From Kofleriaceae bacterium (GTDB taxonomy: Bacteria > Myxococcota_A > Polyangia > Haliangiales > Haliangiaceae): 64,000 nt of DNA. How positions within the stretch are numbered: the stretch's first letter is position 1; every line of letters starts with the position of its first letter. The notes beneath the pieces are model-generated. The model searched no databases. It had not been told where the DNA came from and was given only the letters and a program-made list of their open reading frames with translations. The DNA lies in contig JANXOP010000380.1 of NCBI GenBank assembly GCA_025357755.1, positions 1 through 64,000 of the forward strand, read 5' to 3'. Positions 2,107 through 2,685 of this stretch are shown here, piece by piece. The translations under genes and the position numbers were made by a program.

Positions 2107-2685
2107 ATGCGGCTCGAGGTCCTGAACCGTGGGCACAAGCTCCGCCACAAGCTGCTGTTCAAGATGATCCGCGTGATGTCGTCTCATCCTGCGCCCGACG
2201 TGGTGAAGCTACTGACGTATCGCGGCGACTTCTTCGGCACGCCGATGAACGAGGTCTTTCAGGAAGCGATGCGAGGCCCATCGGAGTGGTCGATCGGCGA
2301 TCGCGAGATGATGGCCTCGTTCGTCTCGAAGACAAACGAATGCGAGTTTTGAATGAACGCACACGGCGCGGTCGCGTCGCACGAGCTTGGTAGAGAGACG
2401 GTCGATGCGGTCAACGCGAACCTCGAGACGGCACCGATCCGCGAGCCGTTGCGCGCGGCGTTACGGTTCCTGAAGATCACGACGCTCGGCACGCCCACCG
2501 CAGCGGACGTGCGCGCCACCTACGCGGCGGGAGTCACGAAGGTCCAGCTGAAGGAGGCGCTCGAGGTCGCGTTCTGCTTCAACGTGATCGATCGGCTCGC
2601 CGATACGTTCGAGTTCCACGTCGGCTCGCCGGCTTCGTTCGCGTCGTCGGCGAAGATGTTGTTGAAGCGCGGCTACAAGATGTAG
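2107..2685 (+). CDS. AhpD-like (CMD family) selenoprotein with in-frame TGA
   Basis: Read as one 192-residue gene with selenocysteine at residue 82 (TGA 2350-2352). Upstream of the TGA the frame encodes ...SKTNECEF, downstream MNAHGAVASHELG. Together these form the AhpD active-site motif C79-x-x-U82 followed by H86, where homologues have CxxC-x3-H. The downstream half (LRFLKITTLGTP...LKEALEVAFCFNVIDRLAD) is the normal rest of the domain. An SD-like AGAGG (2094-2098) precedes the ATG; the half after the TGA has no ribosome site of its own. A SECIS-like hairpin follows the TGA. Expected role: thiol/selenol-dependent peroxidase or reductase. Conventional calling would split it into an 81- and a 110-residue gene. 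Confidence 0.85.
2353..2379 (+). promoter_or_regulatory. Candidate bacterial SECIS element
   Basis: Immediately after the TGA, CGGCGC (2364-2369) pairs with GCGTCG (2374-2379), giving six base pairs including one G-U, closed by the tetraloop GGTC (2370-2373). The loop begins 18 nt after the last base of the TGA. Bacterial SECIS loops bound by SelB typically lie about 16-37 nt downstream and carry a G/GU; the E. coli fdhF loop also contains GGUC. The fit is good by eye, though GC-rich DNA forms hairpins easily. Confidence 0.65.

Follow-up and report, generated by a model that had tools for sequence, protein, structure and literature searches.

A Predicted AhpD-like Selenoprotein and Its Conserved Upstream Partner in a Kofleriaceae Genome

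Introduction

The window, a 64,000-nucleotide stretch of a Kofleriaceae genome, carries a two-gene unit that can with high confidence be read as an AhpD-like selenoprotein together with a conserved partner. The in-frame TGA at codon 82 of the second gene is almost certainly translated as Sec. The partner is encoded immediately upstream and seems to have the same fold without the catalytic helix. This constant pairing with a CMD-like protein offers a testable hypothesis for how AhpD-like selenoproteins work. The AhpD-like CxxU class is itself already known, as a sequence-only reading of this DNA had noted. The Sargasso Sea catalogue holds 27 AhpD-like CXXU and four CMD CXXU sequences (PMC1088965), the GOS survey describes AhpD-like 1 and 2 selenoproteins (PMC2398784), and several AhpD entries, including TIGR01926, are found in the table of a 2026 review (PMC13188914). 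These catalogued proteins resemble the present one in the Sec at the second Cys and in a bacterial SECIS; unlike it, they have no upstream partner described for them in the available text of these sources. What appears to be new is the divergent AhpD-like selenoprotein with a conserved pseudo-subunit, of which no description was found in the open-access literature. The selenoprotein proposed by the sequence-only reading stands, and the refutation tests that could be run by computation came out in its favour, but that reading overlooked the conserved upstream partner gene and made no mention of the SECIS hairpin.

The Selenoprotein Gene and Its Recurrence

The features of the unit are collected in Table 1. 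The 192-codon frame on the forward strand (2107-2685) has the TGA at codon 82 as its sole interruption, exactly where a single frame broken at the second Cys of the motif had been proposed. The expectation that automated annotation would halve the gene is also correct: open reading frame (ORF) calling with table 11 splits it into 2107-2352 and 2353-2685, and this locus clearly exemplifies how such calling divides a selenoprotein.

Table 1. Coordinates of the two-gene unit and its principal features in the window.
Feature	Position	Strand	Remarks
Partner gene, AhpD/CMD-like domain apparently without CxxC helix	1810..2106	+	98 aa; stop abuts the selenoprotein ATG
AhpD-like (CMD-fold) selenoprotein gene	2107..2685	+	192 aa; Sec at residue 82; stop TAG
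E67 codon	2305..2307	+	matches the proton-relay Glu of AhpD in spacing; Glu in 51/52 loci
TGA Sec codon U82 in C79-E-F-U82-M-N-A-H86	2350..2352	+	TGA at this column in 52/52 distinct loci
SECIS hairpin CGGCGC-GGUC-GCGUCG	2364..2379	+	starts 11 nt past TGA; apical loop 2370-2373

The interrupted gene recurs in many related genomes. In the phylum, 59 of the 377 genomes searched gave matches; among the 21 places scoring above 100 bits, 20 contain exactly one in-frame stop, a TGA, and one (G139) is without it. In the class, 317 genomes were searched with a profile; 47 places reached 150 bits or more, of which 43 have exactly one in-frame stop, again TGA, and four have none. A scan of further genome contigs added one locus, L047, from a metagenome-assembled genome (MAG) labelled Myxococcota. 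L047 and L052 apparently lie on one contig and encode an identical protein and were counted once, which reduces the 53 TGA loci examined to 52 distinct ones, the lowest of them scoring 119.4 bits. Weaker TGA-containing matches below 117 bits were left out, apart from those that were fetched and four two-domain relatives that the search with the partner profile had turned up. The TGA occupies the second position of the motif C-x-x-[C/U]-x-x-x-H in every one of the 52, and its presence in this frame is not due to chance.

Protein Family and Active Site

For family scoring, Cys was placed at residue 82 of the window protein. In this form it passes Pfam CMD (24.1 bits, cut-off 23) and ahpD_dom (30.7, cut-off 27.8) and stays below the cut-off of TIGR01926 (52.5 vs 81.8). 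Three unfused orthologues were scored against TIGR01926 as well; two pass (L018 at 84.0 and L025 at 97.5) and L033 just misses at 81.7. The family profile finds the AhpD structures 6k40 (3.1e-26), 3c1l, and 2prr. The C..C...H motif and the preceding Glu of 6k40, an AhpD of D. radiodurans from the peroxidase-related group, align with the present family; 6k40 and 3c1l have Cys at both motif positions, whereas Sec stands at the second one here. AhpD proteins of the peroxidase-related group (6k40, 3c1l, 2oyo, 2prr) are not known to have a partner.

In M. tuberculosis AhpD, the relay consists of E118, C130, C133, and H137, plus a His/Tyr (PMC3141380). Residues E67, C79, U82, and H86 match the spacing of these first four, with E67 located 12 residues before C79 just as E118 precedes C130 (PMC3141380). 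Glu is present in 51 of the 52 loci, the first Cys and the His (H86, described as kept by the sequence-only reading) in all 52, and U takes the place of the second Cys. The His/Tyr position of the relay is occupied by Phe in 45 loci, as in the window protein, and by Tyr in seven.

A longer AhpD-related CxxU selenoprotein is described by NF041238 (AhpD_rel_CFYUT; 357 aa, 'hypothetical protein 1'), against which the window protein stays, at 30.1 bits, far below the cut-off (175). Positions 222-330 of the 357 are matched, so the extra part of that protein is N-terminal, whereas it is C-terminal in the fusions reported below.

A second family of fused, two-domain CxxU AhpD-like proteins was observed in genomes of the same genus and family (L154:689-1639 (+), L156:1335-2324 (-), L157:489-1487 (+), and L158:292-1212 (-)). 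Its members are 317-333 aa long in three cases, L158 being shortened by the chosen start, and share the motif NQC[LF]YUT..HAEFLRVA and a hairpin of their own after the TGA. L157 and L156 pass TIGR01926 and L154 just misses it, while all three tested fail NF041238.

The Upstream Partner Gene

A homologue of the partner adjoins the selenoprotein gene in every one of the 52 unfused loci that score 140 bits or more, of which 48 are Sec forms and four have no TGA; the distances, estimated from profile matches, are about -20 to +18 nt. It stays with all four orthologues that have no TGA. Within the class, the partner profile matches 47 of the 317 genomes. Each of the 45 genomes whose selenoprotein place reaches 150 bits is among them, and the other two are G419 and G478. 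The match in G419, like second matches in G286, G416, and G418, belongs to the other, fused CxxU family, and in G478 a partner-like match of 56.5 bits (L155) has no selenoprotein match in the approximately 500 nt left on its contig.

Sequence comparison indicates that the partner and the C-terminal part of the AhpD-like fold are homologous, and that the partner is inherited together with the selenoprotein. The window partner has no match in Pfam or NCBIfam. Of the 47 partners scanned, a single one hits Pfam CMD (E 0.0067) and 28 match TIGR01926 at E <= 0.01, the best at 6.3e-6; three further Pfam families receive one stray match each. Alignment of the partner profile with the C-terminal part of the selenoprotein by hhalign gave a probability of 94.5, over 48 columns only. 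The partner profile also matches the C-terminal halves of 2oyo (5.3e-7), 3c1l, and 6k40; in this search, designed helical proteins rank among and above the AhpD matches, and no stretch passes alone. An AlphaFold2 model built from 47 rows has a mean pLDDT of 97.4, and Foldseek places AhpD chains first for it (3c1l, TM 0.75 by query) with weak E-values, the best being 0.088. From the order of the helices, we infer that the partner would be a CMD domain from which the CxxC helix has been deleted.

Natural Fusions and the Comparison with Sestrin2

In four loci (L041, L109, L110, and L111), the selenoprotein runs on at its C-terminus into a fused partner region. The L110 fusion was modelled from a 25-row alignment of fusions and selenoproteins (A5), with a pLDDT of 93.5 and a pTM of 0.92; a MAFFT alignment that took in the partners as well (A4) was left unused, its consensus seeming to put the partners on the catalytic domain. 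The PDB matches of the model are AhpD chains followed by Sestrin2, which it matches lengthwise (9lwf_X; TM 0.67/0.67, E 1.6e-4, 10% identity, rmsd 6.9). Sestrin2 is pseudo-symmetric, with the AhpD motif present in Sesn-A and not in Sesn-C, and the pair overlays the 2PRR dimer (PMC4674687).

The natural fusion is predicted to resemble Sestrin2 in combining a catalytic with a dead CMD domain; in Sestrin2, the CMD domain bearing the redox motif and the one devoid of it make up a pseudo-dimer (PMC4674687). The second motif position, which is Sec here, is Leu in Sestrin2, where the first Cys is retained (PMC4674687). Gene organization differs too, with a single gene in Sestrin2 and two genes in the unfused loci. 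No Sestrin was found by sequence among the PDB matches at E <= 10 for the fusion profiles A6 and A7. Since the resemblance is structural only, a shared design is claimed and not membership of one family.

These fusions bear on the alternative that survives best, namely that the selenoprotein is real and the upstream gene functionally separate, being kept by translational coupling or regulation next to an ordinary homo-oligomeric AhpD. Coupling would in general agree with stop and start codons that touch or overlap, AhpD relatives are homo-oligomeric (PMC3141380), and G478 may carry a partner-like gene alone; on the other side stand the joining of the partner to the selenoprotein in four loci, its sharing of the same fold, its retention with the four non-TGA orthologues, and a confident fusion model that matches two-domain Sestrin2. 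We consider separate functions rather unlikely. Partner and selenoprotein probably pair with each other physically and directly.

The SECIS Hairpin

A hairpin with a 6-bp stem and a 4-nt loop, starting 11 nt after the TGA, is present in all 52 distinct TGA loci. The apical loop is GGUC in 51 of them and AGUU in one (L036). In the 48 distinct rows of the alignment, all 288 of 288 stem cells are standard pairs, compared with 16-69% pairing at slid control positions. Three of the six pairs vary on both sides, with compensatory changes in 22 cells in total; the remaining three are invariant and hence uninformative on covariation. The covariation score is 0.260 against 0.096 for shuffled alignments, a value reached in none of 500 shuffles, and two weaker measures of the same test were matched by 15-16 of 500.

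The coding sequence bears the mark of this structure. Codons 87-91, which form the hairpin, show the strongest silent-site fixation in the gene: 51 of the 52 loci have GTC at V89, a codon with 44% usage, and as many have GCG (57% usage) at A88 and at A90; G87 and S91 are without exception GGC (36/36) and TCG (38/38). The residue pair 87/91 is G/S in 36 loci, T/V in seven, A/A in six, D/S in two, and A/V in one, and the two residues covary because the SECIS stem must pair. Protein and RNA constraint thereby act on the same bases. Outside the hairpin, the Phe codon before the TGA (window 2347-2349) is TTT in 29 of the 45 Phe loci against 19% usage in these genes (P 3e-11), perhaps a context effect on UGA decoding. 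The second strong skew outside the hairpin is Ala at +3, which is GCC in 27 of 36 cases against 36% usage; weaker ones occur at +2, +12, and +14.

A published bSECIS model specifies a loop of 3-9 nt, a stem of 4-16 bp, a G in the first two loop positions, a distance of 16-37 nt from UGA to loop, and an MFE <= -7.5 (PMC13188914). The hairpin of the window lies within these bounds, with its 4-nt GGUC loop, 6 bp, 17 nt from TGA to loop, and a fold energy of -9.2 (36-nt fold) or -8.1 (bare hairpin). The stability of the 61-nt stretch of the window is unexceptional, 195 of 200 shuffles folding at least as well, and Rfam gave no SECIS family match. The SECIS of E. coli fdhF likewise has a GGUC loop closing a stem, 18 nt past the UGA in fdhF and 17 nt here, but it has a longer lower stem in place of the one conserved 6-bp stem seen here.

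The Sec Machinery and the Reading of TGA

The machinery for Sec insertion, the search for which had been suggested as a check of the selenoprotein, is present in the source genome (G000), where tRNA-Sec (69 bits), SelA (435.7), SelB (322.4), and SelD (319.1) all score over their cut-offs. In the phylum draw, 21 genomes have the U form, these being the 20 with TGA places above 100 bits plus G082. SelA was detected in 20 of these 21, compared with 246 of the 377 genomes overall (one-sided Fisher 0.0012), and tRNA-Sec over the cut-off in 19 of 21, with none lacking both. The exceptions are G295, whose search returned no SelA, and G333 and G322, whose searches returned no tRNA-Sec; these are drafts, and only 105 tRNA-Sec candidates were scored per genome. 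SelD is over the cut-off in all four U-form genomes tested (G000, G295, G333, and G322). An in-frame TGA was also seen within SelD at L146, L147, L148, L149, and L151 (G139, G483, G295, G322, and G333, respectively), and SelD of these genomes is probably itself a selenoprotein; that of the source genome has no in-frame TGA.

The remaining alternatives concern the TGA itself, and each has very little to recommend it. A reassigned code or plain readthrough, in which TGA would stand for a standard amino acid and no Sec would be involved, accords with an open frame that runs on past the TGA. This possibility is very remote, given that the Sec machinery is present and the hairpin conserved, and that TGA serves as the terminal stop in 21 of the 52 genes of this selenoprotein and ends nine of the 24 long ORFs of the window (picked by length and codon-position GC). 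Since the same codon is also a terminal stop in these loci, TGA is not globally reassigned.

A true stop at the TGA with a restart at the following ATG (TGAATG), which would yield two half-proteins from two genes, draws on the abutting ATG in the window and on the mechanical ORF listing that splits the gene. An ATG directly follows the TGA in only two of the 52 loci, however, and a restart at the ATG of the window is therefore not a conserved feature. Two separate genes would also sever the pair formed by C79 and residue 82 and leave a hairpin with silent-site constraint without a role. The profile match crosses the TGA in one frame at all 52 loci, which places conserved domain sequence on both of its sides as had been claimed, and a pair of half-proteins can be given practically no credence. 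A sequencing error or pseudogene, with a Cys codon misread or freshly mutated to TGA, is less credible still, for although the window belongs to a contig of a draft genome (8.6 Mb in 450 contigs, 89.86% complete, 5.74% contamination), 52 loci drawn from many assemblies share this TGA, and the protein is conserved before and after it.

Cys Forms

Homologues with Cys at position 82, sought by alignment as the sequence-only reading had proposed, do exist. They are four full-length orthologues without TGA: L023, L071 (TGT), L108 (TGC), and L102 (TGC), the last of which has lost the first Cys of the motif. In L023, L071, L108, and L102, respectively, 4, 4, 4, and 5 of the six stem pairs are kept, and the loops read GGUG, GGUG, GAUC, and CGUG; the full stem or loop is kept in none of these four.

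In the phylogenetic tree, L023, L071, and L102 form a supported clade (100/99) within a 29-row group that otherwise consists of Sec forms (100/100), with a midpoint root only. The position of this clade inside the Sec forms suggests that Sec was lost there, while L108 lies on a long branch and its placement is unsure. Of the genomes whose forms lack TGA, G139 and G483 possess both tRNA-Sec and SelD, and G395 and G537 have neither over the cut-off. As the first two retain both components, the change to Cys does not go hand in hand with losing the Sec machinery. A compensation of F81 by Sec was considered and dropped, several Cys homologues also having Phe at that position.

Proposed Mechanism

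The two genes of the unit would specify a selenoenzyme and, as its sister subunit, a protein that shares the fold and has no redox helix. The two products may form a pseudo-symmetric heterodimer, similar to the AhpD-family homodimer or to Sesn-A/Sesn-C of Sestrin2, in which the partner probably stands in for the second protomer. At the active site, U82 would attack a hydroperoxide or a disulfide, and C79 would act as the resolving thiol to give a C79-U82 selenylsulfide, with E67 and H86 as a candidate relay. It is reasonably likely that the unit reduces peroxide or disulfide.

On these assumptions, the unit would be a prokaryotic parallel to the catalytic/pseudo-domain design of the Sestrins. 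A bolder proposal, which we put forward only tentatively and regard as doubtful, is that the unit represents a bacterial version of the Sestrin architecture that is split over two chains and uses Sec. The Sec peroxidase would then form an obligate heterodimer with a regulatory or sensing pseudo-enzyme subunit, and the two would have been fused into a Sestrin-like chain in some lineages.

Neighbouring Genes

Apart from the partner, no conserved neighbour of the selenoprotein gene emerged from 34 neighbourhoods, the largest cluster being found in seven of them at varying positions. A contig end truncates many of these neighbourhoods, two of them (L047 and L142) probably come from the same contig, and clusters overlapping the two genes were set aside. 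In the window, an ArsC-family gene on the reverse strand (1424-1780; Pfam ArsC, 60.4 bits) adjoins the unit, and an ORF on the forward strand (100-699) has a long serine run mid-way.
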